Shown here one piece after another: positions 3,562 through 64,000 of a DNA stretch of 64,000 nt (within the stretch, counting starts at the first letter, position 1; the number at the start of each line of letters is the position of its first letter). The translations under genes were made by a program, and so were the position numbers. The stretch comes from Buxus sempervirens. Its lineage: Eukaryota > Streptophyta > Magnoliopsida > Buxales > Buxaceae. Below the pieces are notes generated by a model, which was not told where the DNA came from, made no database searches, and was given only the letters and a program-made list of their open reading frames with translations. The stretch lies in the NCBI GenBank assembly GCA_947561395.2, contig OX387186.1, positions 3,068,835 through 3,132,834 on the forward strand, written 5' to 3'.

Positions 3562-5593
3562 TGTGTTTTCTGTTTACATATAAAACCCTCATTATTGTAT
3601 AAGAAAATAACCAGACTTAAAATGAAAGATCATAAGAGGCCAAGTTTGTTTCATCCTTCTTAAAACCAACAAATACAATGGATAAACAACATTCACGAAA
3701 TAATTAACATCCAAGATGATCAAGGCCATGGTACATTCAAATTGAACCCAAAAAAAAAACAATTAAATAAAATAAAGGTTTATTTAAAACGAAAAGAAAA
3801 TAAGCATTACTCAGACACAAGCACATGATCAAGCCACTAGTAAAGAATAATAATAACAAATGGACAATTACTAAAATTGAGAAACTAACTTAACTAAATA
3901 TATAAGCCTAAGGGGGTGTTTGGTGGGCAATATAGTAATATTAATAATTCATATTATATTGATTTACATATTATAATATAATAAACATATTATAAACATT
4001 ATAATATATAATAAACATATTATAATATAATAAACATATTATATTGATTTATTGCCATAAATAATATTATATTTATAATAATTTAATTATCTTAATATAA
4101 TATTATAATATATATACTATTTTACAATTTCATATTCTAATAAATTTCTTATACTAATATAATAAACATAAATTATATTATTATAATCTGATTTATATTA
4201 TAATATAATATAATATTATAGAAATGTGCAATTATTATAATTGTTACGTATATTATATAATATTATAATAGTATTATATAATGTTACAATAATATTATTA
4301 TAATACACATAATATAACATTATTATATAATATTATTAATATATAAATTTGAATATTTAAGTAAAAAGATACATATTATATAATAATATATACAACTTTA
4401 AGTAAGACATTTATTTTTCTATATATATTATATTATATTATTTTTTATGCAATTTTTTATACAAAAACTTCAAATTTAATCTCAATAATCAATGTCAATC
4501 AAACATGATTTTTAGATTCTAGTTTACAAATCTGACTTCATAATCTTGCTTATCTAAATAGGATTTTTAGATTCTTAAATCTTGAAAATATAATTTGGAA
4601 TATAGAATCTAGGTTTACTAACAAAAAAAACGAAGAAACACAATGTCACTTGAAGATTACTTGATAGTGAAAAAGCAAATAATCCATTCCATGCATTTTC
4701 AAAAATATTTAAACGTTCACTGTTCGCGCAACTCGATTCCGAAGCAACTCCTTCAAGCCGTTAGCTCCCAAAATTCGGGCAGTTCCTCAAGATGTCAGGT
4801 ATGAACTCCTTCAGACAATTTAATCAACCTGAACGCAATGTACAATGTTGCACAATTAAATTTAGATGAATTTCCAGGTCGATGGAAACCAAATGGGGAA
4901 GAAGAAGCACCTGAATCTACAGTCTCACACAATCAATCAACTTGAACTCAATCGGTGGGTGGGGCAAATCAATCATTCTCTTCTCCAACAAACGTGAGGG
5001 GAAATCAATAAATTTCAATCGTCTGTGCGCAACAGGAATCGGAGAAGACAAAGGAGGGAGTTTTGAAAACTTCGTTCGTTTCGTGTTTCGCGGGCGCAAT
5101 AGGAAGGAGAAAATCCATTCGGCCGAACCACGGTCGAATGGTTCTTATTAACCATTTGGCCGAAAAGGAAAAGTAACGGGTTTTGGCCGAAAACGGCAAC
5201 TAACCGGGCTATCGTCATTGTTAATTTGCGTTTTCGTTTTCGTTTTAAAGGGGGACACGCGTCGTGTTGAGGTCGTTCGAACGACCGTTGAAAAGAGAGG
5301 ATGCGGGTTGGGAAAAAAAAGGGTTAAAAAGATTCTGAAGGATAGCTTCGACATGGACTAGACGCTAAAATGTAAACAAAACCAAATTTCAATGAGAACA
5401 TGACGACAAATATTTTTCAATGAAAATTGCAATCCAAATGAAAAGAAAAAAAATAAAAAAAAAAGTTAAAAAAGACTCTGAAGGATAGCTTCGACTTAAT
5501 ACGTCTTCTGCATCATCATCTTCCCCGTTCAGACCATCTCGGCAGGCTTAAGATTTATAATGGATTTACGCAGAAAAAGGAATTAAAGAAACA
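3562..5593. other. Intergenic: AT-rich block and upstream regions of two divergent genes
   Basis: From about 3910 to 4480 the sequence is almost only A and T, with many 'TATAATATAATA' runs. It is preceded by GGGGGTGTTTGGTGGGC at ~3911, which resembles the start of Tourist/Harbinger-type or other MITEs; I could not fix its far end. 4700-5300 is more GC-rich and is the probable promoter and 5' leader area of the minus-strand FAR1-related gene. From about 5312 the sequence matches the upstream region of CRK-A2 and belongs to the duplicated CRK-A block. Confidence 0.5.
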
Positions 5594-7050
5594 GTGATGA
5601 TGATGCCTTCTCTCATTGTCTCAGCCGCAACCCTTGTGTCACTCCTATTAATATCTTTCCATAGCTTTGGCGGTTATGCAGCTGTACCTCTGAAGATAGT
5701 TTGTCCAGACACAAATAATAATACTTACACTCCAAACAGCAAGTATGCATCCAACCTCAAGCTCGTCCTCTCTTATCTATCCTCCAACGCAACACTTGAC
5801 AGCGGGTTCTACAATTCCACGGCAGGTGAGGACAGAGACAGAGTTTATGGGTCGTTTCTCTGTCGAGGCGATGTGACCAGCAACGTTTGCCGAGACTGCG
5901 TCGAAACGGCAATCCAAGAGACGCTTCAAGGATGCCCAAACCGAAAAGACGCAGTTTCTTGGTACGACGAGTGTCGGCTGCGTTATTCGAGCCGATGTTT
6001 CTTCTCAATCGTCGACGAAAAGCCCCAGTATTGGATGGACAATATGGGTCAGGTGTCGACAGAAGATAGCGATGGGTTTCCTCGGATTTTACAAGATGCT
6101 GTCGACAGGCTAGTGAACCGTGCTGCCTTCGATGTTTCTTCCCGTATGTTTGCGACCGGCGAAACGAAATTTCTGGATCGCGGAACCATTTACAGTCTTG
6201 TGCAGTGCTCCCCAGATTTATCGGGAAGGGACTGCAACGGATGTCTTCGGTACGTCTTTGCTCAGCTCACTGCGTGCTGTCGCAGAAACATCGGAGCACA
6301 GATTCATGTACCCAGTTGTAGTATGAGATACGAGGTTTATCCTTTTTACCGGATCGAACCTGCAGGCCCCGTTCCTTCACCCCCTTTAGTTCCTTCCCGT
6401 AAGCCAAGTACGTCTTCATTAATTGGGATAAATCTTCTGATTTTGAGAGTTAAATTGGTATTTATTTGGGGGGTTTTTTTTCGTTTTGTTGATGCAGAGA
6501 AGAAGAAGCTGAACTCCTTGAGAACCATAATTGCTATTGTTCTTTCAATTCTGATAACAGTGGTACTCCTTGGTGTCCTCTGCGCTCTGTCACGTAAGAA
6601 AGCAAAAAAGCTGAGCGTCAAGGATAAAGGTAACTTTCAGATTCAAAATTATTTTTAATGCAAATAATTGTTTGATCCTCAACCAACACCGTTTTGCTTA
6701 TTGAGCATAGTTAACGAGGGAACTCAAGATCTGGAGTCCCGGAAATGTGATTTGGACACGATCAGAAGGGCCACGGACAACTTTTCTAGGGAGAACGAGA
6801 TTGGTGATGGTGGATTTGGTCGTGTATACAAGGTATTAATATCTATCTAATGAGCTAGATTTAATTCGTTCAACTCGTTCGAGTTCACGAAGTTGCTCAT
6901 GAAACCATTTCAGGGAATTCTTTCCGATGGCCAACAAATCGCCGTCAAGAGGCTATCTAAAAATTCTGGGCAAGGCACCGAAGAGTTTAAGAACGAGGCT
7001 GCCATAGTGGCCAAGCTTGAGCACAGAAATCTTGTCAGGCTACCTGGATA

Positions 7051-7700
7051 TGTTGTGGTGAAGTCCCACCACTTGTGAATGATTTACCTAATACTTTGAA
7101 GTTCAAACAACCCAACAAAGTAATGGTAATACACCAAACACACAAACAAAGTGTAAACTAGCCACTAAGTGTGTAAGAAAATGAAATAGAAGCACAACCA
7201 CAAACAAGAGACGAGATTTAACGTGGTTCGGAACTAAGGCCTACGTCCACGGGCAATTCGGCAAGATGGAACTCCACTATCAATGCAAAAGATTACAACA
7301 AGAGAGGATTTAGAAGATTTACCTCTCTACAAGCTTGACACATAAAACATTCACCCAATCCCACAATATGCAACCTTCCACATTATGTTTGTAACCCCAA
7401 ACAATTATGAAAGAACCCCCAAATAACTTGGAACAAACCTTGCAAGAGATGGAATGGTGAAAACCCTTGTAGAGAAAACCCTTGTCTCTTCTCTTTCTCT
7501 CTCCTCTTCTTCTCACTCTCTCTCTTAATAGAACCCCATCTAGTGTCTTATAACCCACATGAGAGAGCCCCTCTCATGTACCACACTAATGGTATATAAA
7601 CTTTATTGCTACCATTTACATGAATACCCTCATATAAAGTAACAAGTCCCAAGAGAACAAAAAGACATAAGGAGAAGTGATTTTATATCACCTCTCAACA
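7051..7700 (-). repeat. Copia LTR (3' LTR in element orientation)
   Basis: 650 bp, starts TGTTGTGGTGAAG and ends CTCTCAACA as written on plus. It is almost identical to 11821-12470. The adjoining internal sequence contains the purine-rich tract on the minus strand. Confidence 0.95.
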
Positions 7701-10700
7701 ATCTCCACCTTGATAGAAAATCACCTTGCCATTGCCAAATCCACCAACTCACCTTGGCATGATACTTAGAGAAGTTAAGCTCCACTCCAACTTCTCTAGG
7801 GTCACTATTTTAGTCAACATGTCGGCTAAGTTCTCCTTGGTTCCAACCTTTAAGACTTGAATCTTCCCATCTTCAATAACTTCCCGCACATAGTGATATT
7901 GGACACTAATGTGTTTAGTTCTTCTATGATACACCGGATTCTTAGCCAAACAAATAGCACTCATGTTGTCGCAAAACAACTCCATGGATTTTGGACTTAA
8001 ACCAATCTCACCCATAAGACCTTGAAGCCACACCGCTTCTTTGCAAGCCTCCGTTAATGCCATGTATTCGGCTTCGGTACTAGACAATGCCACCGTTGCT
8101 TGTAACTTTGACATCCAATTAATCGGACCATTTCCCAAGCAAAATACATACCCGGTAGTAGACCTTCCTTTGTCAATGTCATTAGCATAGCTTGCATCAA
8201 CATGTCCATGCATTTGTCTTGAATCCTTACCATATGTGATGGCATAGTTACTGGTGCCTCTCAAGTAACGAAGCACCCACTTAGCGGCTTCCCAATGTGC
8301 CTTACCCGGATTAGCCATGAACCGACTCAAAACTCCAACCGCATAGGAAATATCCGGCCTTGTACATACCATAGCAAACATTAAGCTCCCTACAAGACTA
8401 GCATAAGGAACTTGGCTAATTTTCTTCTTTTCTTCTTCAGTCTTTGGACATTGTTCCAAAGATAACTTGAAATAAGGTGCTAGTGATGTCTTCACAGGCT
8501 TAGACTTGTCCATGCTAAACCTTCCAAGAACCTTCTCAATGAACCGTTCTTGTGAGAGTGACAAAGTCCCGTTCTTTCTATCCCTTGTAATTTCTATCCC
8601 AAGGATATGTGTAGCCGGTCCGAGATCTTTCATCTCAAATGCCTCACTCAATTGTGCCTTTAGCTCTTGAATCTTAGACTTATCTTTACCCACAAGCAAC
8701 ATATCATCAACATACAAGACCAACATCAAGTAAGTGCCATCTTCAAGTACCTTCATATAAACACAATGATCATATTGACTTCTTTCATAACCAAGGCCCA
8801 ACATGAAGGAGTCAAACTTCTTGTACCATTGTCTTGAAGCTTGCTTCAACCCATATAAAGACTTATTAAGTTTACACACCAATTCTTCCTTGCCTTCTTC
8901 AATGAACCCTTGAGGTTGCTTCATGTAAACCTCCTCCTCAAGGTCACCATGCAAAAATGCGGTTTTCACATCCATTTGTTCAAGCTCTAAATTAAACATA
9001 GCAACTAAAGCAAGAACCAAACGAATAGAAACAAGTTTAAGAACCGGTGCAAAGACTTCAAAAAAGTCAATACCTTCCTTTTGAGAAAATCCTTTTGCAA
9101 CTAACCTTGCACGGTACTTTGTAATCTTTCCATCCTTGCCTTTCTTGAATTTATAGACCCATTTGCACCCAACCGCTTTTCGCCCCTATGATAGTTCCAC
9201 CAACTCCCAAGTTTTGTTCTTGTGAAGTGCATTCATCTCTTCACCCATAGCTTGCTTCCAACTTGTAGAGTCACTACCATTAATGGCCTCTTCAAATGTG
9301 CATGGTTCACCATCTTCAGTGATTAAAGCCCTCATGGTAATAGGATCAACACAATCTTGAAGTCTTGATGGTAAATGCCTTTCACGTCTTGGACGTTCTT
9401 GAGATAGTGGTGGTTGTAGTTGTTCATGTTGCCCATTATCTTCTTGAGCTTCAACATCTCCATCAACCACTTCTTCATTAGGAGTTACATTTTCCGGAAT
9501 AAAACCACCCGGAATAACTTCAAATTGCTCCACCTCATTTTGACCTTCTTCCTTGGTAGGCTCCAAAGTCTTGTTTAGCATTCTCGATTCATCAAAGTGA
9601 ACATCACGGCTATGAATTATTTTACGAGAAACCGGATCCCATAAACGGTATCCTTTAACATTCTTTCCATAACCAACAAAGAAGCACTTTCTAGACTTTG
9701 GATCTAATTTATCCCTTTGACAACTAGGAATCAATGTATATGCATCACATCCAAATATTTTCAAATCGGAATAATCACTAGGAGTTCCATGCCATACCTC
9801 TTGAGGTGTTTTCTCTCCCAATGCCGCCGAAGGTGATCTATTCACAAGGTAGCAAGCCGTGTTGATAGCTTGCGCCCAAAACTCCTTATCAAGACCCGCA
9901 TTGCTTAACATACACCTTGCACGTTCCACCAAAGTTCTATTCATATGCTCCGCCACCCCATTTTGTTGAGGGGTTCTAACAACGGTATTATGCATGACAA
10001 TTCCTTCATCTTTGCAAAAATTGAGGAAAGTATTGTTCAAAAATTCTAAACCATTGTCGGTTCTAATCACCTTGATGCTTCTTCCACTTTGTTTCTCCAC
10101 CTCGGCTTTGAAATGCTTGAATGCAATGAAAGCTTCATCCTTTGTCTTCAAGAATGTCACCCATACCCTCCTTGAATAATCATCAATGAAAGATATGAAA
10201 TAAGATGCACCACCATGTGATTTAGTGCGAGATGGACCCCACAAATCCGAGTGAACATAATCAAGTATGTCTTTGCTAGTATGACTCCCGGCCTTGAAGC
10301 TTCTCCTATGATGCTTGCCATAGACACAATGCTCACAAAATTCTTTATCACCAAAGCACATCTTAGGAATAAGTTCCTTTTTCATCAAAATGTCCATACC
10401 TTTTTCACTCATGTGACCCAACCTTCTATGCCAAAGCCGAACCGGATATTCATCATGGTCAACCGCCACTTGTGCACCATCTACAATTGTGCTTCCAAGC
10501 AATTTATACAAGTTTCCAACCCGAATGCCTTTCATAACAATCAAAGCACCCTTAGAAACTTTAATCACTCCACCTTGTCCGGTGTACTTGTAGCCACAAG
10601 AATCAAGTTCTGATAGTGAAATCAAGCTTTTCTTCAAATCCGGTACATGTCTTACATTTTCAAGTGTTCTAACATTGCCATCAAACATCTTGAGTTGTAC

Positions 10701-11820
10701 CACACCAATACCCACAATATGACTAGTTGAGTTGTTCCCCATCAAGACATATCCACCATCACATGGTTCATATGAGCTAAACCATGACCGATGTGGACAC
10801 ATATGATGAGTAGCGGCGGTATCAAGAACCCAATTTTGATTATAAATATGACTACTACTAGCCATAAATACCTCATCTTCAATGGACCCGGATATTGATT
10901 CTTCCACTTGATTGGCTTCACTTTTGGTCTCGCCTTCATTCTTCTCTTTTTCATATTCTTTACTTGAGTTGGAACCCTTGCCTTTTCTAAAGTAGCAATC
11001 TTTCTTCAAATGCCCTTTCTTACCGCAATTCCAACAAGTACCTTTTTCAAACCGGCCTCTTGACTTTGAACGGTGACTAGATTTCCTCCTTGAAATGCTT
11101 CTAAATGATCCACCACGCTCATTAGGACGTCCTCTTATAGTAAGAGCCTCCATTTCTACCTCCAATGATGCATGCCTTCTAGATTCATTGGCAAACAAGG
11201 CACTAGTCACATCATCAAAAGTGAGTTTATCATCCATGTAACAACTTAGAGTTGTAACCAAGTTGTCATAACTATCCGGCAAAGTACATAACATGGTCAC
11301 CGCTTTATCTCGATCCTTCATAGGTTCATCAATGCTTTCAAGTTGACTAACAATATCATTAAAAGTGCTCAAGTACTCGGAGATCTTGGTGCCTTCGTTC
11401 ATCTTCAAAGAATATAACTTCTTCTTTAGAAGAATTATGTTGAGTAGAGATTTGGTTTGATACAAGCTCTCAAGCTTTGCCCACAACTCGGATGCCGTCT
11501 TCTCACCTTTTATATTAAAGATCACATTATCCGCCAAACACAAGCGAATAGTAGAGACCGCCTTCATATCCATTTTTAACCAATCCTCTTTGCTCATAGT
11601 GGATGGCTTTTCACTTATACCAAGTAAAGCTTCCTCTTGCCCATTTTGCACCAAGACATCATACATCTTAATCTTCCATAGCTCAAAGTTATTTCTTCCA
11701 TTAAACTTCTCCACCTCAAATCGGTTGCTTCCCATTTTACTACACTTTTACTCACTTAGGCAATTCCACAAACACCTTGTTCACACTTTCTTCACATAAC
11801 CCGGAAGCTCCGATACCACT

Positions 11821-12470
11821 TGTTGTGGTGAAGTCCCACCACTTGTGAATGATTTACCTAATACTTTGAAGTTCAAACAACCCAACAAAGTAATGGTAAT
11901 ACACCAAACACACAAACAAAGTGTAAACTAGCCACTAAGTGTGTAAGAAAATGAAATAGAAGCACAACCACAAACAAGAGACGAGATTTAACGTGGTTCG
12001 GCACTAAGGCCTACGTCCACGGGCAATCCGGCAAGATGGAACTCCACTATCAATGCAAAAGATTACAACAAGAGAGGATTTAGAAGACTTACCTCTCTAC
12101 AAGCTTGACACATAAAACATTCACCCAATCCCACAATATGCAACCTTCCACAATATGTTTGTAACCCCAAACAATTATGAAAGAACCCCCAAATAACTTG
12201 GAACAAACCTTGCAAGAGATGGAATGGTGAAAACCCTTGTAGAGAAAACCCTTGTCTCTTCTCTTTCTCTCTCCTCTTCTTCTCACTCTCTCTCTTAATA
12301 GAACCCCATCTAGTGTCTTATAACCCACATGAGAGAGCCCCTCTCATGTACCACACTAATGGTATATAAACTTTATTGCTACCATTTACATGAATACCCT
12401 CATATAAAGTAACAAGTCCCAAGAGAACAAAAAGACATAAGGAGAAGTGATTTTATATCACCTCTCAACA
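11821..12470 (-). repeat. Copia LTR (5' LTR in element orientation)
   Basis: 650 bp with the same termini as 7051-7700. The tRNA-Met-type primer-binding site lies immediately to its left on plus (about 11803-11820). Confidence 0.95.
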
Positions 12471-12642
12471 GGATACTGCTGGGAAGGAAAAGAAAAGATA
12501 CTTATTTATGAGTTCGTCCCAAACAAAAGCCTGGACTACTTCTTGTTTGGTTTGTATCTGTTTAACACCCTACTTTGAATTGCTTTTCCATGAACTACAA
12601 CTTAGAACTGCATTCCGGTCCTGAATTGGGTCATCATTTTGA

Positions 12643-12963
<321 letters not shown>

Positions 12964-13473
12964 TAATTCATGGGATGGTCTCGCAGTGGCTACATGGCTC
13001 CGGAGTATGCAATGCAGGGGAAATTCTCTGCCAAATCAGATGTATATAGCTATGGTGTGTTAATTCTTGAGATTATAAGTGGTAAGAGGAGCAACTCTCT
13101 CTCTCAATCTGACTGCAGCGAGGACCTCTTGAGCTATGTAAGTTGAATTCAGAGAATTACAATGAGCCCAAGATGATCTACTTATGTAAATTCAAGAACT
13201 AGATTAAAAGTTGATGGATTGTTGCAGGCTTGGAGACATTGGAAGAAAAGAACAGCATTGGAGTTGCTAGATCCCAACTTAGGCAACTGTTATTCAGCAA
13301 GTGAAGCCATGAGATGCATTCACATTGGGTTATTATGCATTCAAGAAAATGCAAAGCACCGATCTTCCATGGCATCGGTAGTTCTCATGCTCGACAGTCA
13401 CACTGTTACCCTTCCATCTCTTTCGCGGCCACTTAGAGTGGAATCAGGACAAGCGCACCAGGATTGTGAATGA

Positions 13474-16469
13474 TGTTTCAATTGCAGATCTGTAATTGAA
13501 AATTTTTTTCTCAGAGGGGTATCATCGCAGATAAATGTAAGTCAGTAGTTGGATGCAACTCGAATCAAAAGTGTCAAAAATTAGGGATTAACATTCGACT
13601 GATCCACGGTATAAACATTTGTGAAACAAAATTCCCAGATTTGGACTTGATGTTTCTTCAAGTCTTATAATCACTTTTTTATAGATTCAACAAACTGGGC
13701 ATTAAGCTTAATCTTACCTTTCTGTAATTGAGAGAGAGAGAGAGAGACAGAGATTTGAAGGACTTGCTGCGTTGAATAAGATTAGTAGAGGAATCATACT
13801 AGGTGAGGAAGGTTAACACTATCAGGGCGCAGACGAACCCTTGGACTGGCCCCTTCAACAAATTAATTACTTTTTAACTTACCGATGAGTGATTGTTTTG
13901 ATGGAATCTGTAGGAAACAGAAGGAAAATGAACTTTCTGTTGTTTGTGTAATTGGTTCATAGGTAAATGTGGGGCCAAAGAAAATTAATTTTCCAAAAGA
14001 GATATATTTTTCCACTAAAAAGATCTGTTCCTTTCATTGGAGAAAATATTTTCCATCTGATGAAAATTTTCTAGGAAAAAGTTTTACTTCTTTCCTTTTA
14101 ACTATTCGGACATGACATGGAACATGTTCTACACATATTTTTTTTCTTATATAAATGCCAAGGATCATGTTTATAGAAGTACTTAAAATATCATGCTAAA
14201 TTTTAATATCGTTTCCACTCGGTGAAAATTAGCCTTTGCTTTATGATCACGAAAATATCTAACTAGAGAGGAATAAAGGACACTTGGTGGATTCTTTCTT
14301 TCAATTGATCATATAATCTTTAAAGTTGACTCTCACATATGAGAAACTATGGCCTTTTTTTTTTCTCTCCCAGAGGAAGGCCTTCAATGCTTAACGTGTC
14401 AGCTCTTGCAAATTTGGGCTTACCCATCTCTCTTATTCGTCCTTTTCTTCTCTTGTCTAGAAGAAACCTTCTCCAGATTACCTTAAGATGAACGCTGACT
14501 GTTTATGTTTCAGTGATGGGAGAATTATCTCAAATTCATTTATACGCTCTATGATGGCTTTTTCCTTCTATTGTGGTGTATGCTCCAATTATGAATCTGA
14601 GTTTGTTGCAGTTTATAGGAGTTTATGCATATGCTTATCTTCAGGTTTCCTAGATTTTTTAATTGAAACATATTCAATAAATCAGATAAATTGGCTTGGT
14701 GACAAATGATCTCAACTATGGCATCTGTGTTACTGGTTTGCTAAACTTGGAGCCAGGTTCCCATCATATTTTTTCTTCCATTGGAAATATTCCAAAATAA
14801 GCTTTGGGATTTTAAACACTCGCCATTGTGAAAACGAAGAACCCTCCTAGAGGTTTAACATAAACGGGCCAGTTATTCTGCAAATTCGAACGAATATGAG
14901 TTACGAGGGCTAGCAAATGGGCTGAGTGTCCAGGCGGTTTATTGATGATCCACAATCCGAACCGCGTCATATACGAACCGAGAAGTGCGCAAATACATAC
15001 ACGTGGGCCGTGACACGTTTTCCTGGAAACAGGGCATCATTTAGAATGTCACTACATTCAAATAACCTCCTCACCACAAGTTCAAAAAGCCTATTTTAGG
15101 TCATTGACATTTGCCAGCATATAGAACAAAATATTCCTCAAAAAATTTAGCTATTTTATGGGCTATATTATTTTTGCATGTATTAATTTATAACTATCCT
15201 ATTATATAAAGTCAATCCCCCTTTTTTTTTTTTTTTTGGCCTGATATTTTATACCGTAAATGTCTTTCAATTTTTTCAAATTCACTCCATCACCCAGATT
15301 TGTTAACGGCGCGTGCCTTATCATAACTAATTGTCCCCTTCTTTGTTTATTTCTTCGCTATATACCTAGTGCATGCATTCTCTTAGTTATTGTAAAAGGA
15401 AACTGGGAAATTCTCGATGGAGATTTGCTACCCAAAGGGCTACTCATTCTTTTTTCATATTGACTACCATATTCCAATTACTAACTAACACCAAAGATTT
15501 GTGACCTAAGGAGTTCCTTTTCTTTTTTATGCTGTTTACTTTTTCCCTCCTCCAAAGAGCTACTCATTCTTTTTAGTCGATCTTTATAATTTGGTATAAA
15601 CCTACCAAAAAATTGTACATTCAATATATCTTACTTAAAACCTAAATTACTAATCATGAAAAGACAACAATAAACCCTACCATCATCAAAATAAGGTATC
15701 AAAACAAGACCGGTTCTCTTCAAAGGAACAAGATTTTCCTTCTTCAACATGGAGAACTTTGCTCCAGTGAAAACACCAGATCTTAATCTTGGTCTGCGTC
15801 TCCGGTCCCTTACACAGGACTTCAAATCTACAATACAGTTTGGTGTTTCTCGCCTATCTTACCTTGAATTTTCTTCTCATGAGTATTTCTTATGTATAGT
15901 TATAAGTTTTATGGCAGTGGCCCTTTAGGAATTTAAATGTGATCCATTCAAACGTATTATTTGACTTAAATTAAGGATTAGATAATCCACTTTATCGAGG
16001 TTTTCTGCTTAGAATTAATAAGGAAATGAACCAATATTGGGCTAAGGTGAAGTGCTTAACACTTCTTATTAAAAAATATAGTGGGTGGCATTGACATAAT
16101 AGGCCCCTTGGGAAGCATGCCAAATGTGCAGCTTTCCAAAATAGTCTTCGTAAATTATTGAGGAGATACATTAATAAAAGGGTACAATGGTCTAAACTGC
16201 TTTTGTTGTTTCAAAACTTGCGATCAATTTTTGCAATCGTTCCCGCCAATTTTCTCTCTTTAACTTCTAGAAAACCTTTATCAAAATAATTAAATTTCAA
16301 TGATATTTTATTATTACAAAAAAATTCTTGCAAAAATGGCCTTATACAAGTCATGTAAGGGATTGGTATAAGGGTATTTTTGGGAGAATTTGTTTGTAAT
16401 AGTAAAATATCACTGAGATTTAATCATTTTGATAAAGGTGTCCTAAAAGTTGAAACTCCAAACATTTGC
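13474..16469. other. Intergenic; no supported gene
   Basis: Holds the 3' flank of CRK-A1, including a short GA repeat near 13730-13750 shared with CRK-A2, and then AT-rich sequence. A 73-codon open frame at 14488-14709 and several shorter ones have no recognisable motif, and I do not call them. About 16080-16440 precedes the CRK fragment and looks like degraded non-coding sequence. Confidence 0.45.
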
Positions 16470-19149: not shown

Positions 19150-19440
19150 ACTTTATGGTCATCTACAGTGTTGGTCACATCGTTTACTGATAGCTCAAGC
19201 GTGAAGGCATGATTTCCTTTTGCGTGTCAAAGACGTTTTATGCGGGGAGAAATAAATAATGTAGTTGAAGATTGACAGTCTCTTTCGGGAAGCCGGAGTA
19301 GGGACTCAAGGAGGTGACATTCCTCTGCGTAATGGTGTGCACGTCAATGGAAGGAACGACGTACGTGGTCCCTCAACAGATGACTTCAATTTCCAAGTCA
19401 ACTAATCAATTCATGTACGTGTCATCGTCCTCGGTTTAGA
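19150..19440. repeat. CRK-upstream conserved block, orphan copy 2
   Basis: Second copy of the block, about 840 bp after the first and in the same orientation. It forms the left edge of the larger duplicated segment 19150-21310. It has the same GGTGACATTCC...GACGTACGTGG core as the CRK-E upstream copy. No reading frame of CRK type lies beside it. Confidence 0.75.
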
Positions 19441-19730
19441 CTTTATAATTAATTAATTTGGCAAAGGTTATTTATTTGGTAGCCGTGGGGTGCTTCTGCT
19501 TCTTCTGCCATATATATATGTAGCAATGATTTGGCAAGTACGTACATACAAAGCCAGCCCTTTTAACTGGATCAAGAAAGTATGATTAAGGCAGAAATAA
19601 TGCTATGGGCATTACCAAAAAAAAGAAATAATGCTATGGGACTCGGCATATAAGAAAATGTCACATTTAGGATATCCGAAATGGAAAGAAACTGCATCCT
19701 GAGACACAACAACGAAACTCTTGTTTTTCA

Positions 19731-20236
19731 TAGAGCTGGCAAAAGTGACCTGAACTGATGGGTCAATTCGACCCAACTCGATTTAAATGGATTTGGGTTG
19801 CTCTGTATATTAATTGGTTCCGTAATCGGGTCAACCAGATTATAACCCGATAACTTGACGGATTATCCTATTAAGCCATTTAGTCATATAGAAACGCTAG
19901 CATGCTTAAACTGAACCTGGATTTCCGACTAGTGAGTATATATAGATTTTTTACTAATGATAGAACATTAGAACTTTAAATCTAACGTTTAAAGATGGTT
20001 CCTAATATATGAAATTTTTAGTAGAATCCAGATTCCAAATATAGAATGAGAACATGATTATCATATAATTTTTCTAATTATTTTTTTTGAAAAAAAAAAA
20101 ATCGGGTTTAGCGAGTTGAACTCGTTTATTGGTAAGTTGGATTCGATTTGGGGATTTTCCAACCCGTCATTAATCGGGTTCAATCCCACCCGATTAACCC
20201 CCAATCCTATTATGACCTGACCCATTGCCAGTTCTA
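19731..20236. mobile_element. hAT-like MITE
   Basis: Ends TAGAGCTGGCAA and TTGCCAGTTCTA are inverted repeats. The left flank GTTTTTCA resembles GTTTTCCA found just after the same right end in the duplicate at about 56780, consistent with an 8-bp target-site duplication. The interior repeats 'TCGGGTTNANCCGATT'-type segments and has no coding capacity. Confidence 0.65.
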
Positions 20237-21020
20237 GAACTTTTCCACAGCGTAGTTTCTCCTTATCTAAATGCAGCCTTGTGGGTAAAATATTTTTTTT
20301 TAAAACCTTAAAATGCCCATTACCTAATGCAAGCTCTACTTGCTCCGAACATATGCATACACCTACAACTTATCTGTTAGGTCTCAATGAAGCTGGGGTA
20401 TTACATGTTGGAACAATGAATGACGTAAAGTGGTTTTAAATCTCAACTGAGACGAATAAGTTGAGAAGGGTTAGTAACCAATTGGATGTTTGTCTTGTGT
20501 TCAATTTGAATCCGATTTAGGAAAAGTAAATTTATAAGGTTCTTTTTATTTGTTGCGAACAATGAATAAGATGGCAAAAGAAGCAGGGAATATAACAAAA
20601 GTATTTTCATCTTAAGGTCATCCATGGTATGGAGTCCACCCCCAAACCGGGCTAGTATTAGCAGCCCCTAAATGAACCCTCTACGGTTTGGTGATACTGA
20701 GTAAAGTGAAATACACAAAACACCTATATTTCCACTTACATGCGCATGCTGGCATAACAAGAACTACATGACAAGATTGCTACAATAATTCATAAAATAT
20801 AATTAAAAAGGATTGGGATTCATTTATTTAAAATATTTTTAATATAAATGATAACTACATATCTATTAAAATAATTGTCATCTCCTCGCTCTTTCTTCCA
20901 CTAATTGTAGGTAGCATGGGAGCTCTCTTGTCGCACTCCAAACCGGAACATGCGTGTCATTTCTGACACTGAGAAAGACTAAAGACTTTTCGCAGGATAT
21001 TAGTCTGTTAGGAAATTCTT

Positions 21021-22750
21021 GAACCGGTCTTCATGGAATAATCTGGACTTGTCCGGTCTTTAACCAAACTGATGTTGAGATATTAGAATTAACACCAGAG
21101 GGTCTTTCGTGCTTGAAAGAACGTTAAAACACAGAGCCCACGATACTTAGGGACAAAACACCCACCTGTCACTTTGTTTACTTCTTGAACCAGTTTCACA
21201 GAATAATCTTGCCTTGTTCGGTCTTCAATCAAACTAATGTTGAGATATTAGAATTCACACCAGAGGGTCTTTCATGCTTGAAAGAACGTTAAAACGTAGA
21301 AGCCCTCGATTCTTAGGTGTAAGGTTTAATAATTTAGTTTGGCTTAATTCAGTGTCAAAAAGAATGTGTTTAAGTGTGTTTAGAATGTTTAGGTTGAGTC
21401 CAAGAAGACATGGTTCAAACGGCGTCAAAATCGGAGTCAAATTGAAGAAGTTATGCCCAACGTTTGATCAACGTTCTCTGTCCGTTCGAACGTTCAATTT
21501 CTGGAGAGCAACGTTTGCTGAACGTTTGCTGAGCGTTCGAACGTTCATGTTCTGTAGACAAACCCGAGAGCAACGTTTGCTGAACGTTTGCTGAGCGTTC
21601 GAACGTTCATGTTCTGCAGAGAAACCCGAGGCTAGCGTTCGACCAACGTTCTCTGTCCGTTCGAACGTTCAAGTTTTAAAGGCCAACGTTTGCTGAACGT
21701 TTGCTGAGTGTTCGAACTTTCAAACAGCAAAATTTCCGAAAAGTTACGAAAAATTACATAACTTACTCGTTTCAATTCGGATTGACTTCAAACTTTTTGG
21801 GGAACCTTTAAATAGGATTAGGGACCTTCTAAACCTAAGAGAGCTACGTTTTAGAAGCCCTAAATATCCTTTTCTCTTCTGAAAACCCTTCTTTTAGGTT
21901 TTCATCTTTTGAGCGATAAAACCTTTCTTTTCTTCTTCCTTCCTCTACCTTGGAGTTCCGGGTTTGGGAGATTGATCGTGGGAGTTCCTACGGATACCAG
22001 GCGAGTTCGTTTGGGTGATCGTGTGAGAAGATCTTCAGAGTTCTGAAGTGTTGCTGTGGAGCAAATCTGAGGAGTTCCTTAGATACTTTCAAGTCTGTGA
22101 GTTGCAGAGTCTAGCATAGGGATATTGAGTCGTCTGAACTACAAGTTGTAAGTCTTCTTTTCATATTGGATCTTTTAGGTGGCTCCTGCATAGCCCGGAA
22201 GGTTTTTCTCTAGTGAGAGTTCTCATAGAGTTTTCCCTTCGTCACCAAATTGCTTGTTTTGTCTTACTTTACATGCTTTAATTATTTGCTCGCAATTTGG
22301 GTGGCTTGTTAATTGCTTTTGATTAGTTATTTGATTTTCTGGAATTACCTTGAGGATTTGTTCATGCCTATTAATTAAGGACTTGTCTTTAATTGATAGA
22401 AAAATTTTATTCCGCTGTGCTACACCTATTCACCCCCCTCTAGGTGTTGTTAGAGTCAAAACCCTGTTTTTCATTAGGGACAAAACACCCACTTGTCACT
22501 CTGTCGACTTCTTGAACCGGTCTTCACGGAATAATCTGGCCTTGTCCGGTCTTCAACAAAACTGACGTTGAGATATTAGAATTCACACCAGAGGGTCTTC
22601 TGTGCTTGAAAGAACGTTAAAACGCAGAGGCCATCGATTCTTAGGGACAAAACACCCACCTGTCACTCTGTCTACTTCTTGAACCAGTCTTCACGGAATA
22701 ATCTGGCCTTGTCCGGTCTTCAACCAAACTGATGTTGAGATATTAAAAAG
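21021..22750. repeat. ~166-bp tandem repeat array, interrupted by a solo LTR
   Basis: Units begin GAACCGGTCTTCACGGAATAA and run through 'GAGATATTAGAATTCACACC', 'GAACGTTAAAACGCAGAAGC' and GGGACAAAACACCCACC. Starts at 21021 and 21187 are 166 bp apart. The array is cut at 21318 by a solo LTR and resumes at 22474 with further partial units to about 22745. The same family recurs at 57729-58215 and as a remnant at 29444-29520. It is non-coding and its function is unknown. Confidence 0.8.
21318..22473 (+). mobile_element. Solo LTR, copy 1 (LTR retrotransposon)
   Basis: 1156 bp, begins TGTAAGGTTTAATAA and ends CCCTGTTTTTCA (TG...CA). TTAGG is duplicated at 21313-21317 and 22474-22478, inside a tandem-repeat unit whose uninterrupted copies read ATTCTTAGGGAC. 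No internal retroelement sequence is present, so this is the solo LTR left by recombination. An internal run of AACGTTTGCTGA and GTTCGAACGTTC motifs repeats several times. The superfamily cannot be assigned from the LTR alone. A second copy is at 44066-45139. Confidence 0.88.
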
Positions 22751-45701: not shown

Positions 45702-45867
45702 GCTGAAGGTGACCCGGGCTGGGTGATCAAGCCGGTTGGGTTTTCAACCCGGGTTAAGTAAGCTGGGTTGAAGGGCGTGCACCGAGGACTGACCTGTACA
45801 CGCGTCATACGCTGAATCTAGTACAGGTACCGCACGACATTTTAGACTTTGAAAGTCCGAAGGAAAA

Positions 45868-48915
<3,048 letters not shown>

Positions 48916-58215: not shown

Positions 58216-59487
58216 TCTTCCACATTGACACAGTTAGCCTTGTTTCACAAACCATGGGTGGCTCCGTGAAGTTGGATTGTTACATGTTGGAACGATGAAT
58301 GATATATAGGATACAACAAAAGAGTTGAGAAGGATTAGTAACCAATTGGATGGTTGTCTTGGGTTCAATTTGAATCCGGCCGTATTAAGAAAAGTAAAAT
58401 TTATAACGTTCTTTTGATTTGTTGCTGAATAATGAATGAGATGGCAAAAGAAGAAAAGAATATACAAAAACAGAGCAAACATATAACACCAGATTTTACG
58501 CAGTTTGGCTTAACAGCTTATGTGCACGAGCAAAGAAGATGCGAAAAATCACTAACAAGTGAGAGAAATGTATCAAGACTTTTTCTGTAAAACAATAAAT
58601 GAATGCTTTAACTTAATTAGAAAGCCAGAAAATCCTAAGAGTTTCGTTCCAAACAAATCTCTCAAAATGCACAAAAACAAATGTATTTTCATTTTAAGGT
58701 CATCCATAGTGTGGAGTCCACCCCCAAACCCCAAATGGACTAGTAGAAGCAACCACTGAATGAACCTTCTAGTTCGGTGATACTAAGTAAAGTGAAATAC
58801 AAGATACCTATATCACATGATTTATAATCCTATTAAATGTGACTTTGATTTGATAACATTAATAATCATATATTTCTATTTACATGGGAACACTGGCATA
58901 CCAAAGATGATAGGGGGTTTATACAAGAACTCCATGATAAAGGTTGATACAATAATTCAGAAAAATATAATTAGAAACGATTTGGATTCATTTATTTGAA
59001 ATATTTTCAATGAAAATGATAATTACATAAATATTAAAATAATTCTCATCCCGCTCTTTCTTCCACTTGTAGCTAGCATGGGAGCTATCTTGTCCCACTC
59101 CAAACCAGGACATGGATGTCATTTCTGATACTTACGCACGAAATTTGTCAGTTATAGGAAATTCTTGAACCGGTCTTCCCGTCAGTACGGCGCTTTCTTA
59201 TCTGGTTGGGATCCAGCGGTATATTAATCTAGCCTTAATTATATGGGCTCCAAGACTGATCACGACCAAACTGATGTTGGCATATTTGATTGTTTACGTT
59301 TTAGTTCTTTGTGTTTTTTTTTTTTTTTGGTGGTAAAGTTACGTTTTAGTTCTTCGAACCTCAATAAATCAAGACTTCACTTCACTGACTGTACGGATAT
59401 CGATGTTCTCTACCGTTTGATGGTTTGATGGACTTGTTAAGGTCATCTACAGTGCTGGTCACATCGTTTACTGATACATATACATAT

Positions 59488-59518
<31 letters not shown>

Positions 59519-59825
59519 ACACATCGTTTACTGAGAGATATATATATATTTATTTATTGGTCATATATATTGGTCACGTCGTTTACGGATAGCTAAGTGT
59601 CGAAGGCATGACTTCCTTTTGCGTGTCAAAGACTTTAAAGACATAAATAATGTAGCTGAAATCGTCTCTTTCAAAGACTTTCATTTCTGTTTACCAAAAA
59701 AACAAAAAGACTTTCATTTCTGGCTTACCAAAAAACAAACAAAACAGACTTTCATTTCTGGATGTAATTAATCTTCTTAAGTTGTTTCCATGAAAGTTCT
59801 CGCTCCTCTGCAAACATGAATAAAA
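58216..59825. other. Repeat field: partial segmental copy, microsatellite, CRK-upstream block remnant
   Basis: 58250-59170 is a diverged third copy of the 56930-57720 type sequence (TTGAGAAGGATTAGTAACC). 59490-59518 is a (TA)n microsatellite. 59448-59670 repeats the phrase ACATCGTTTACTGATA several times and keeps part of the CRK-upstream block (GACTTCCTTTTGCGTGTC). No gene. Confidence 0.6.
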
Positions 59826-59834
59826 ACAAAACAG

Positions 59835-61453
59835 CGACCGATTTCCTCTACGGCGAGTTCCCTACGGCTTTTTTTACGGCCCGAATGATAAAGGGACGCG
59901 TGGATTATGAAGGTCTCGTGACATTCACGAGACCTTCATTCGTTTTTTTTCCACGGGCCGACAAAGACCAACCGGTCTTCCAACCCAAAACAAATCGACC
60001 GGTTGGTCCCAAACCAAAATCATGAGACCAAATAAAAAATGCTTGGGTTTTCTTTGTTTTTTGAGTTTTTACCTTACGCCCAAGCGCGCCAAAATTGCAT
60101 AGAAAGCATCACTCTCGGGGTGGTGATGGTCGCAACAAGGAGAAAATACCAAGAAGGAATCGCAGGGTTTTTAAGCTCGATTTATATTTTTTTACAAATT
60201 ACGGCTTGACGCTCGAGCGGCTTCAAGTCGCACGCAGAGCGTCACTCTCGGGTTTTCTGAGTTTTTTTAATTTAGTCTTGACGCTCGAGCGGCCCGAAAT
60301 CTCCCCGAAAGTGCCATACTTGGACTTTTCTGGGTTTGCGCATGGCACGTTTGACGCTCGAGCGGCGCAAAACGTGAAGAAATTTTTAAAAACCTTGGCC
60401 AATTGGGACCCTCCCGCTCGAGCGGCGCGAAATCGCGCCTAAAGCACCATACTTAGCGAATTTTTTAACCTCATACATTGTCCCTGCCATGGATGGACTT
60501 GTAACTAGGCATGGTTTGACTTATACCTAGGCATGGTTGGACTTGTAACTAGGCATGGTTTGACTTGTAACTAGGCATGCATGGTTTGACTTGTACCTAG
60601 GCATGGTTTGACTTGTAACGAGGCATGGTTTGACTTGTACTTAGGCATGGTTTGACTTGTAACTAAGCATGGTTTGACTTGTACCTAGGCATGGTTGGAC
60701 TTGTAACTAGGCATGGTTTGACTTGTAACTAGGCATGGTTTGACTTGTACCTAGGCATGGTTTGACTTGTAACTAGGCATGGTTTGACTTGTACCTAGGC
60801 ATGGTTGGACTTGTAACTAGGCATGGTTGGACTTGTAACGAGGCATGGTTTGACTTGTACCTAGGCATGGTTTGACTTGTAACTAAGCATGGTTTGACTT
60901 GTACCTAGGCATGGTTGGACTTGTAACTAGGCATGGTTGGACTTGTAACGAGGCATGGTTTGACTTGTAACTAGGCATGGTTTGACTTGTACCTAGGCAT
61001 GGTTTGACTTGTAACTAGACATGGTTTGACTTGTACGTAGGCATGGTTTGACTTGTAACTACGCATGGTTTGACTTGTAACGAGGCATGGTGGGACTTGT
61101 AACCAGGCATGGTGGGACTTGTAATCTGGCATAGTGGGACTTGTAACTTGGCATGGTGGGACTTGTAACGAGGCATAATAAGACTTGTAACGGGGCATGG
61201 TATGACTTGTAACCGGGTATGGTGGGACTTGTGATCTTGCATGGTGGGACTTATGACGGGGCATGGTATTACTTGTAACCGGGCATGGTGGGACTTGTAA
61301 TCTGGCATTGTGGGACTTGTAACTAATATTTAATTTTAACCTTTATAAATTTTCTTGTGACTTAATTTTAGTAATTTTTCTTATGCTTCGTAATGATAAT
61401 GTTGATTTCTGTGCAATTTGCGCCTGCTCGAGCGTCAAGCCATGATTTAACAA
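59835..61453 (+). repeat. Left terminal inverted arm of the Pack-MULE
   Basis: In order: the terminal ~90 bp; a perfect 13-bp-arm hairpin GAAGGTCTCGTGA...TCACGAGACCTTC (59919-59947); subterminal motifs GACGCTCGAGCGG at 60208, 60280 and 60353, with a relative at 60414; the 22-bp array (60485-61324); and an inner unique part ending CATGATTTAACAA. The repeated CTCGAG motif near the ends may be where transposase binds; this is inferred from position. Confidence 0.9.
60485..61324 (+). repeat. 22-bp tandem repeat, about 38 units (left arm)
   Basis: Unit TAGGCATGGTTTGACTTGTAAC with two alternating variants (GTAACTAGGC and GTACCTAGGC) and a diverged inner set (GGTGGGACTTGTAATCTGGC). It gives long but meaningless open frames because 22 is not a multiple of three. 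Confidence 0.92.
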
Positions 61454-61683
61454 ACTTAGAAAACCCGAGAAGGCCGATTTTGCGGCGATTTGCGCCCGCT
61501 TGAACGTCAAAGCAAATTTAAGCAAAACTCAAAAAAGTACGGGGAAGACGACCCCTCCATTCTCTTGCGTTTCTTTTTGTCATACATTCCTTTAATCAGG
61601 AACGTAGGATTACACTTTCTTAAAGCTTTAATTGCTTGTGCATCTTGTTGACCATTAATTAATTAAGTGGGAAGTGCTTGCAG

Positions 61684-61828
61684 GAGTGGCTGCAACAAGG
61701 GATACGCGTTTGTTAACTTCACAAAGCCAGGAGCTGCATGGAAGTTCAACATCTGCTATCATGATCATAAGTGGGACGTCCTCCATTCCAAGAAGATATG
61801 CAAAATCACGTACGCTAGAATTCAGGTA

Positions 61829-61904
<76 letters not shown>

Positions 61905-62160
61905 CATCTTCCATGATCACTTTCTTCTTCACTTAATTTGGTAGAAATTAGTTAACTACAAGCTAGCTGTTCAACAAGATAGCTAGTTAAGGCCTCAGTC
62001 TTTCTGTATCTCTCTCTCACTACTGTTCTTAAGTTTGTTTTGGTAATGGTTGTGACATCAGGGTAAGGTACAACACTTCCAAAACTTGACCTTTATGTGT
62101 GCGTCTGATGACTTACTACTCGTCTACTTCATCCCCTACTGTGACGGTGCAGGAAAGGCA
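61684..62160 (+). pseudogene. Captured MEI2-like RRM fragment (two exons and the intron)
   Basis: MEI2-like and terminal-ear proteins carry a C-terminal RNA-recognition motif (RRM_2). Exon 61684-61825 reads RSGCNKGYAFVNFTKPGAAW, then DVLHSKKICKITYARIQ, with an intact acceptor (TTGCAG) and donor (GTAGGA). Exon 62062 to about 62160 continues in phase: GKVQHFQNLTFMCASDDLLL, then VYFIPYCDGAGK, where the family has HFKNSRF and FSPPRDG. The rest of the protein is absent. Retention of the intron shows the capture was from genomic DNA and not from mRNA. Confidence 0.88.
61831..61903. repeat. (AT)n microsatellite in the captured intron
   Basis: About 73 bp of uninterrupted AT dinucleotides, just after the donor of the captured MEI2-like exon. 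Confidence 0.97.
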
Positions 62161-62192
62161 AAACAGTACTCGGTACAAGAAGGCCGATTTTG

Positions 62193-62347
62193 GGGTTCAA
62201 ATCCTTGTATTTCACTTGGGTTCTTAGTCGCTGGTTCTCGAACTCCACTTCCACAAACGGGGAAGACGACCCCTCCCCGTCCTTTGGCATCAAGTTGTGT
62301 GCTGCAACGACTTCAAGGACAAGCTTCTCTCTTGTGGGGTTATTCAT
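62193..62347 (-). pseudogene. Captured MCTP/QUIRKY-type C2-domain fragment
   Basis: MCTPs are multiple-C2, membrane-anchored proteins at plasmodesmata (QUIRKY, FTIP1). The minus strand reads KLVLEVVAAHNLMPKDGEGS, then SPFVEVEFENQRLRTQVKYK, then DLNP, a textbook first C2 domain, and then breaks into MULE-derived sequence. Only about 50 residues are present. It lies antisense to the MEI2-like piece. Confidence 0.88.
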
Positions 62348-62394
62348 CCTCTCTATACAAGAAAAACCAGGAAGAAAAGAAAGAGAGGAGAGGT

Positions 62395-62438
62395 AACGCA
62401 GAGAAGGGTTGTCATCGTGCCAACCCTTTTCTGCGTTA
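62395..62438. other. Hairpin in the Pack-MULE core
   Basis: AACGCAGAGAAGGGTTG and CAACCCTTTTCTGCGTT form 17-bp arms with one mismatch around a 10-base loop. A second small inverted repeat (AGGGGCTG...CAGCCCCT, about 62449-62511) follows. Role unknown. Confidence 0.7.
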
Positions 62439-62549
62439 AAACTTTATAGGGGCTGAATATTAGCCGGATTGGGCAAACCAAGCCGGCTGGTTTTCTGGGC
62501 CAGCCCCTACAAATGAGTAAGTATATCACGTGAAGTCACGAGAATAAAG

Positions 62550-62621
62550 TTTACACGCGTCTTGCTTTAATTGACGCTGTAAAATGGCCGTAGGGGACCT
62601 CGCCGTAGAGGAAATCGGTCG
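62550..62621. repeat. Internal, diverged copy of the MULE terminus
   Basis: GCCGTAGGGGACCTCGCCG through GGAAATCGGTCG (62587-62621) repeats the element's right end (63955-63988) in the same orientation, and similarity extends about 70 bp inward. It differs from both outer ends, so it may mark an older, nested or ancestral MULE end. No matching left terminus was found in the core. Confidence 0.75.
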
Positions 62622-62631
62622 GCCACGCGTC

Positions 62632-63988
62632 TTGTTAAATCATGGCTTGACGCTCGAGCAGGCGCAAATTGCACAGAAATCAACATTATCATTACGAAGC
62701 AAAAGAAAAATTACTAAAATTAAGTCACAAGAAAATTTATATAGGTTAAAATTAAATATTAGTTACAAGTCCCACCATGCCAGATTACAAGTCCCACCAT
62801 GCCCGGTTACAAGTAATACCATGCCCCGTCATAAGTCCCACCATGCAAGATCACAAGTCCCACCATACCCGGTTACAAGTCATACCATGCCCCGTTACAA
62901 GTCTTATTATGCCTCGTTACAAGTCCCACCATGCCAAGTTACAAGTCCCACTATGCCAGATTACAAGTCCCACCATGCCTGGTTACAAGTCCCACCATGC
63001 CTCGTTACAAGTCCAACCATGCCTAGTTACAAGTCCAACCATGCCTAGGTACAAGTCAAACCATGCCTAGTTACAAGTCAAACCATGCCTAGTTACAAGT
63101 CAAACCATGCCTAGTTACAAGTCCAACCATGCCTAGGTACAAGTCAAACCATGCCTCGTTACAAGTCAAACCATGCCTAGGTACAAGTCAAACCATGCAT
63201 GCCTAGTTACAAGTCAAACCATGCCTAGTTACAAGTCCAACCATGCCTAGGTACAAGTCAAACCATGCCTAGTTACAAGTCCAACCATGCCTAGGTAAAA
63301 GTCAAACCATGCCTAGTTACAAGTCCATCCATGGCAGGGACAATGTATGAGGTTAAAAAATTCGCTAAGTATGGTGCTTTAGGCGCGATTTCGCGCCGCT
63401 CGAGCGAGAGGGTCCCAATTGGCCGAGGTTTTTAAAAATTTCTTCACGTTTTGCGCCGCTCGAGCGTCAAACGTGCCATGCGCAAACCCAGAAAAGTCCA
63501 AGTATGGCACTTTCGGGGAGATTTCGGGCCGCTCGAGCGTCAAGACTAAATTAAAAAAACTCAGAAAACCCGAGAGTGACGCTCTGCGTGCGACTTGGAG
63601 CCGCTCGAGCGTCATGCCGTAATTTGTAAAAAAATATAAATCGAGCTTAAAAACCCTGCAATTCTTTCTTCTTGGTATTTTCTCCTTGTTGCGACCATCA
63701 CCACCCCGAGAGTGATGCTTTCTATGCGATTTTGGCGCGCTTGGGCGTAAGGTAAAAACTCAAAAAACAAAGAAAACCCAAGCATTTTTGATTTGGTCTC
63801 ATGATTTTGGTTTGGGACCAACCGGTCGATTTGTTTTGGGTTGGAAGACCGGTTGGTCTTTGTCGGCCCGTGGAAAAAAACGAATGAAGGTCTCGTGAAT
63901 GTCACGAGACCTTCATAATCCACGCGTCCCTTTATCATTCGGGCCGTAAAAAAAGCCGTAGGGAACTCGCCGTAGAGGAAATCGGTCG
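62632..63988 (-). repeat. Right terminal inverted arm of the Pack-MULE
   Basis: Reverse complement of the left arm with a handful of substitutions seen by eye. It is 262 bp shorter, close to 12 units of the 22-bp repeat (264 bp), so nearly all the length difference is repeat number. Confidence 0.9.
62763..63336 (-). repeat. 22-bp tandem repeat, about 26 units (right arm)
   Basis: Same repeat as 60485-61324 read on the opposite strand, with the same order of inner (CCCACCATGCC) and outer (TCAAACCATGCCTAG) variants. Confidence 0.92.
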
Positions 63989-64000
63989 ACAAAACAGACT

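Follow-up and report, generated by a model that had tools for sequence, protein, structure and literature searches.

The stretch of Buxus sempervirens DNA analyzed here (the window; 64,000 nucleotides of contig OX387186.1, positions 3,068,835 to 3,132,834) carries near its right edge a 4,154-bp element, 59835-63988 in window coordinates, that we consider probably to be a Pack-MULE (a non-autonomous Mutator-like element, MULE, with host gene fragments) built in two layers: an old element to which a younger inverted copy of its own end was added, the composite then having moved as one. That this is a transposed, non-autonomous Mutator-like element carrying gene pieces is well supported by its 9-bp target-site duplication, its long inverted ends, and its fragments of RRM_2 and C2 domains. 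A preliminary description had taken it for a Pack-MULE whose palindromic arms are its terminal inverted repeats (TIRs); the class assignment holds, but an older third end inside the element favors an ordinary end with a later inverted self-copy over arms that are TIRs of a single layer. The parts on which this reading depends are as follows.

59826-59834, plus strand: left target-site duplication ACAAAACAG, 9 bp, perfect.
59835-61453, plus strand: left palindromic arm; outside the arrays its identity to the right arm is 98.8%.
59835-59975, plus strand: terminal block of the putative old left TIR; pairs with 62483-62621 (70.3%, E 4e-13).
59907-59939, no strand assigned: short subterminal hairpin with a 15-bp stem and 3-nt loop, present in the right arm too.
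60181-60310, plus strand: GCTCGAGC-bearing modules of the putative old left TIR; pair with 61406-61534 (70.2%, E 8e-15).
60488-61325, plus strand: left 22-bp tandem array, 38 units.
61406-61534, minus strand: modules in inverted orientation, interpreted as the inner portion of the old right TIR, reaching about 80 bp beyond the palindrome end at 61453.
62483-62621, minus strand: internal third terminus, interpreted as the older element's right TIR; its last bases are CGGTCG, up to 62621.
62622-62631, plus strand: seam GCCACGCGTC between the putative old right end and the appended arm.
62632-63988, minus strand: right palindromic arm, which repeats 59835-61453 in inverted orientation and holds a shorter array.
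62760-63333, within the right arm: right 22-bp tandem array, 26 units.
63989-63997, plus strand: right target-site duplication ACAAAACAG, 9 bp, perfect.

Three termini, two tiers of identity, a seam, captured gene fragments, and a target-site duplication are all seen directly in this one copy. A scan for the 19-bp terminus that tolerates up to three mismatches finds it at three places in the window, namely the two outer ends and the internal position 62603-62621, where it faces right; 100 shuffles gave a mean of 0.00. The internal terminus equals the left end exactly over 23 bp and agrees with the outer end at 110 of 158 aligned columns (alternatively 70.3% over 145 columns, E 4e-13), and past its first 29 bp the similarity still exceeds that of 1,000 of 1,000 mononucleotide shuffles. 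The nine bases that follow it, GCCACGCGT (62622-62630), occur once in the window and their reverse complement not at all, so the internal terminus has no target duplication here, and the idea of a distinct nested element that made a duplication of its own is not supported. An extra terminus, similarity over at least 100 bp, and the lack of a duplication of its own are the marks of a multiple-TIR MULE, and all three are present.

When AT-tract matches are set aside, the two best inverted pairs within 59835-62621 are nested and both about 70% identical (131 and 145 columns); five mononucleotide shuffles, made without the 400-bp AT-rich stretch, gave no matches. The nested pairs can be read as what would be expected of one old TIR pair with its right half split by inserted DNA. 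Modules of the left arm continue to about 61536, past the palindrome end at 61453 (58 of 81 positions identical, above 1,000 of 1,000 shuffles), while the right arm goes no further than 62632, leaving 10 nt to the internal terminus. Because the modules outrun 61453 while the right arm stops at 62632, we place a younger palindrome (98.8%) over an older element (70%).

The younger tier is defined strictly outside the 22-bp arrays, where 771 of 780 aligned positions agree (645/652 and 126/128) with five gap bases; the larger arm blocks, which include alignable array edges, are identical at 709 of 717 and 387 of 391 positions. Ten distinctive array units near the inner end (NOPQRSTUVO) are collinear in both arms, which argues for a common ancestor of the arms. 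The outer, more uniform units are unlike in number and order between the arms, and the arrays appear to have been altered by whole units since that ancestor. All ten copies of GCTCGAGC in the window lie inside the element.

The preliminary description was right about the element's coordinates, its perfect 9-bp duplication, and its arms of 1,619 and 1,357 bp filling about 70% of its length: ACAAAACAG stands on both sides of 59835-63988, and the arms together make up 2,976 of 4,154 bp (71.6%), leaving a loop of 1,178 bp. It makes no mention of the third terminus, of the 22-bp arrays, or of the modules that outrun the palindrome. The outer ends are CGACCGATTTCC (59835) and GGAAATCGGTCG (63988), and the element end sequence is CGACCGATTTCCTCTACGG. 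On the plus strand of the window ACAAAACAG occurs four times (44249, 59739, 59826, and 63989) and on the other strand never. Since the copy at 59739 is part of a small tandem repeat upstream of the element, in which the right-flank sequence ACAAAACAGACT also recurs, the target lay in or near a repeated A-rich motif. The duplication falls within the 9-11 bp of MULEs, and the old pair of 145 columns with its 131-column module pair conforms to their long TIRs (about 100-500 bp), the outer arms being longer. No transposase family was found by Pfam in the three internal and ten arm reading frames; nine of the ten arm frames had no match, and one resembled a phage terminase domain, though below threshold (E 0.074). 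Rfam at gathering scores gave no match in 59000-64000, and DNA comparison of the element with the rest of the window returned AT-tract matches only.

Between the inner modules and the internal terminus lie captured gene pieces and short patches of DNA from elsewhere in the element.

61539-61558, minus strand: 20-bp patch identical to MCTP-derived 62257-62276 (E 8e-6).
61684-61825, plus strand: MEI2-like exon with part of an RRM_2 domain (Pfam E 2.4e-11), preceded by an intron-like 3' splice site.
62062-62152, plus strand: second MEI2-like exon, in phase with the first; its own frame matches no Pfam family.
62178-62192, plus strand: 15-bp filler identical to left-module 61468-61482 (E 0.006).
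62189-62347, minus strand: MCTP-like coding DNA, from its start codon through the N-terminal half of a C2 domain (Pfam E 1.7e-9).
62394-62438, no strand assigned: 45-nt snap-back hairpin, 84% self-complementary (E 4e-8).

The first MEI2-like exon has AG in front of it and GT behind it, and beyond the GT comes an (AT)n-rich stretch that looks like intron. The peptide joined from both exons matches RRM_2 positions 44-92 (E 8e-12), with only about five residues of the second exon covered; the rest of that exon presumably continues the MEI2-like resemblance beyond the RRM_2 match. Because one exon is bounded by AG and GT and the second is in phase with it, the capture looks like DNA with introns. 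Against solved structures, the C2 fragment is closest to synaptotagmin-7 (E 8e-8) and then to the C2 domain of MCTP2 (E 1.6e-4). The putative labels MEI2-like and plant MCTP are based on these domain matches and on likeness to the sequences of the two families. The 20-bp patch stands where the modules meet the MEI2-like intron, the C2 homology stops at about 62189, within the 15-bp filler, and at the seam an 11-mer, CACGCGTCTTG (62624-62634), repeats 62554-62564, 70 bp upstream. Together the patches, the snap-back hairpin, and the seam repeat resemble filler left by a template-switching polymerase, which suggests the kind of process that the available text of PMC8277862 proposes for Pack-TIRs; that of PMC3310237 discusses slippage between repeated motifs for one tandem-TIR family and leaves the cause open.

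From these junctions we infer an order of events, with template switching as the cause and movement as a composite. Layer 1 would be an old non-autonomous Mutator-like element of 2,787 bp (59835-62621), with a left TIR made of the terminal block and the GCTCGAGC modules, followed by the 22-bp array, and a right TIR (modules at 61406-61534 and terminal block at 62483-62621) that the captured MEI2-like and MCTP-like DNA would have split. In layer 2, a template switch just beyond 62621 would have copied the first 1,619 bp backwards, giving an inverted partial duplication and a composite with two outward-facing copies of one left end. A transposase acting in trans could then have moved the composite as a unit, leaving the perfect 9-bp duplication; because this duplication flanks the outermost ends, movement after the palindrome had formed is suggested. 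A single copy would thus preserve the junctions of several steps, namely split old TIRs, filler patches, and a younger inverted self-copy, and duplication of an end, gene capture, and palindrome formation may share one template-switching process. The portions of PMC3310237 and PMC8277862 at hand call it unresolved how MULEs take up genes and acquire additional ends, and a 2026 review, as far as its accessible part goes, reports a transduplication mechanism for Pack-TYPE elements (PMC13317346).

Several observations weigh against this two-layer history. The 64-kb window holds one copy only, and the single-layer intermediate (59835-62621) is hypothetical. The arrays differ by 12 units, which implies several changes after the duplication, or an arm derived from another copy. 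The modules repeat and can pair in inverted orientation in other registers (60042-60116 with 61395-61469; 60253-60383), and their 70% may reflect general module similarity instead of one old TIR pair. The 15-bp filler is only marginally significant (E 0.006), and the 10-nt seam is not fully explained, as the shared 11-mer has an E value of 1.3 alone and overlaps the arm by 3 nt.

The repeated modules also bear on an alternative in which the element belongs to a foldback family, such as FARE or FB, with long arms from the start that were kept alike by gene conversion, and picked up the internal terminus later with the gene fragments. Modular, array-bearing arms are typical of foldback elements in the parts of PMC4486113 and PMC3169594 consulted, PMC3310237 (available text) considers that extra TIRs were perhaps acquired like other captured DNA, and pairing in several registers fits such arms. 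We nevertheless regard this origin as unlikely: one split TIR could account for both the internal terminus and the inverted modules at their shared 70%, which chance acquisition does not predict, and the right arm breaks off 10 nt short of the internal terminus. In another alternative, two related copies inserted nearby in opposite orientation, or one within the other, and a later deletion took away part of one of them together with any inner duplication. Nested insertion with loss of the inner duplication, or recombination, is listed among the possible origins of extra TIRs in the accessible portion of PMC3310237, and array lengths of 38 and 26 units would permit separate copies, but this history requires an independent deletion ending at most 10 nt from an intact terminus, as well as two copies that are 98.8% identical, and the 9 bp at 62622-62630 have no second copy in the window; we find it rather improbable. 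Errors in long-read libraries are known to generate palindromes, but an assembly or chimeric-read artefact is highly improbable here: outside the arrays 9 substitutions and 5 gap bases separate the arms, the arrays differ in length by 12 repeat units, the 1,178-bp loop is asymmetric, the outer ends are bounded by the target duplication, the window contains no N, and an array pattern of shared inner order with whole-unit outer differences would not be expected from assembly error.

The suggestion of the preliminary description that the arms could fold into one giant hairpin is physically plausible. The plus strand has a predicted folding energy of -3,075.7 kcal/mol versus -1,297.8 for a single control sequence in which the right arm was reversed, and 1,339 of 1,800 predicted base pairs join arm to arm. 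The further proposal, that small RNAs from the element could act on host MEI2-like and MCTP genes, is not supported, because the gene fragments sit in the loop: among the matches listed, with AT tracts filtered out, the longest complement of captured 61559-62393 within the element is 16 nt, of which 14 are identical. The internal terminus and the modules have complements of 28 and 26 nt in the arms, as remnants of old TIRs should. Small RNAs arising in the stem would match the element's own family, not MEI2 or MCTP genes. Any function of the element is probably passive, that of a hairpin-prone, non-autonomous sequence. An improbable extension would make it a mobile counterpart of maize Mu killer (Muk), a Pack-MULE in which partial inverted self-duplication created a hairpin locus that subsequently transposed. 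If so, read-through wherever the element lands could give double-stranded RNA against the family's ends, including the promoters of an autonomous partner, with the gene cargo unpaired in the loop; it would be a self-limiting element spreading its own silencer.

CpG counts were high in the arm outside the array (59835-60487: 52 versus 36.2 expected; 1 of 2,000 mononucleotide shuffles as high), less markedly so at 61326-61540 (11 versus 6.6; 79/2,000) and 62483-62621 (11 versus 8.5; 362/2,000), and low in the captured DNA (61541-62397: 19 versus 33.0; 2/2,000 as low). The left array is CpG-poor (observed/expected 0.29), the ratio in the window before the element is 0.65, and TCG/TTG changes make up 3 of the 12 substitutions in the two larger arm blocks. 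These counts may weigh mildly against long, heavy methylation of the arms; since the GCTCGAGC modules alone may explain the CpG content, we draw no conclusion about methylation from them.

Elsewhere in the window, a FAR1/FHY3-like gene lies on the minus strand at 672-3336, with two reading frames carrying FAR1, MULE, and SWIM domains; the element terminus is absent there and, within the window, is confined to the element. A duplication relates 5313-7050 and 12471-13752 to 45866-48862 (98.7% over 1,740 bp and 89.5% over 1,284 bp) and carries a receptor-kinase-like ectodomain gene with a Stress-antifung domain, the first copy being the one scanned. That copy is split by an element at 7051-12470, called Copia-like from a look at its reading frames, whose long terminal repeats are 99.4% identical, and in the other copy the corresponding site, near 47599-47603, is unbroken. 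Between 56993 and 59134 there are local duplications spaced about 1.33 kb, as well as a 167-bp tandem repeat, and parts of this region also match 19153-21317. The 19-bp terminus had three exact loci in genome contigs, which were set aside as coding coincidences in bacterial reading frames containing TDFLYG; these matches extend over 21-22 bp, and at one locus (L003) over 25 bp with one mismatch, and two of the three frames resemble a sulfite reductase flavoprotein. An exact scan of viral contigs gave no locus.

Among the titles and abstract openings listed, in which subscription journals are poorly covered, none presented a MULE as a Pack-MULE duplicated upon itself in inverted orientation, and a MULE "with unusual structure" (PMC9168764) was rejected as a precedent, as the available text places what is unusual in its reading frames, not its arms. 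The comparisons that follow likewise draw on the accessible parts of the papers cited. The solo-TIR types of multiple-TIR MULEs (Ferguson and Jiang 2012, PMC3310237) share an extra complete inner terminus and an outer 9-11-bp duplication with none inside, and some types carry gene fragments, as here. This element differs in the distance from inner end to outer terminal block, about 1.2 kb and beyond their 600-bp screen, and in its intervening DNA, which is an inverted copy of the first 1.6 kb of the opposite end and forms a giant palindrome. Long modular or palindromic arms with hairpin potential are shared with FARE of Arabidopsis, Tm1, FB, and MuTAnT (PMC4486113, PMC3169594, PMC8277862), and the internally repetitive long TIRs of such foldback elements are found here as well; by description only, the element can be likened to Tm1 and FB4 in its repetitive TIRs and to MuTAnT, Tm1, and FB4 in their 9-10-bp duplications. 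Unlike in those elements, we interpret the palindrome here as a younger, second layer added to an older element.

The arrangement is also that of Muk (PMC3440606), a partial inverted Mutator duplication in which both outer TIRs come from one parental end and the partial copies meet in an inverted duplication, with a hairpin transcript of about 4 kb proposed. Both outer ends here also appear to derive from one parental end, as the arms are 98.8% alike and the old right end 70%. In Muk the duplicated DNA includes part of the transposase gene, and the locus silences MuDR, whereas the ten arm frames here have no transposase match in Pfam, and the old right end and the captured genes stay inside, with the 9-bp duplication flanking the whole. 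The Ssk-FB4 Pack-MULEs of Drosophila (PMC8277862) likewise combine a repetitive-TIR element with captured gene DNA, for which the FoSTeST model proposes fork stalling, template switching, and later transposition; they are an animal FB element with a captured gene, whereas in Buxus sempervirens the element's own end would also have been copied in inverted orientation.

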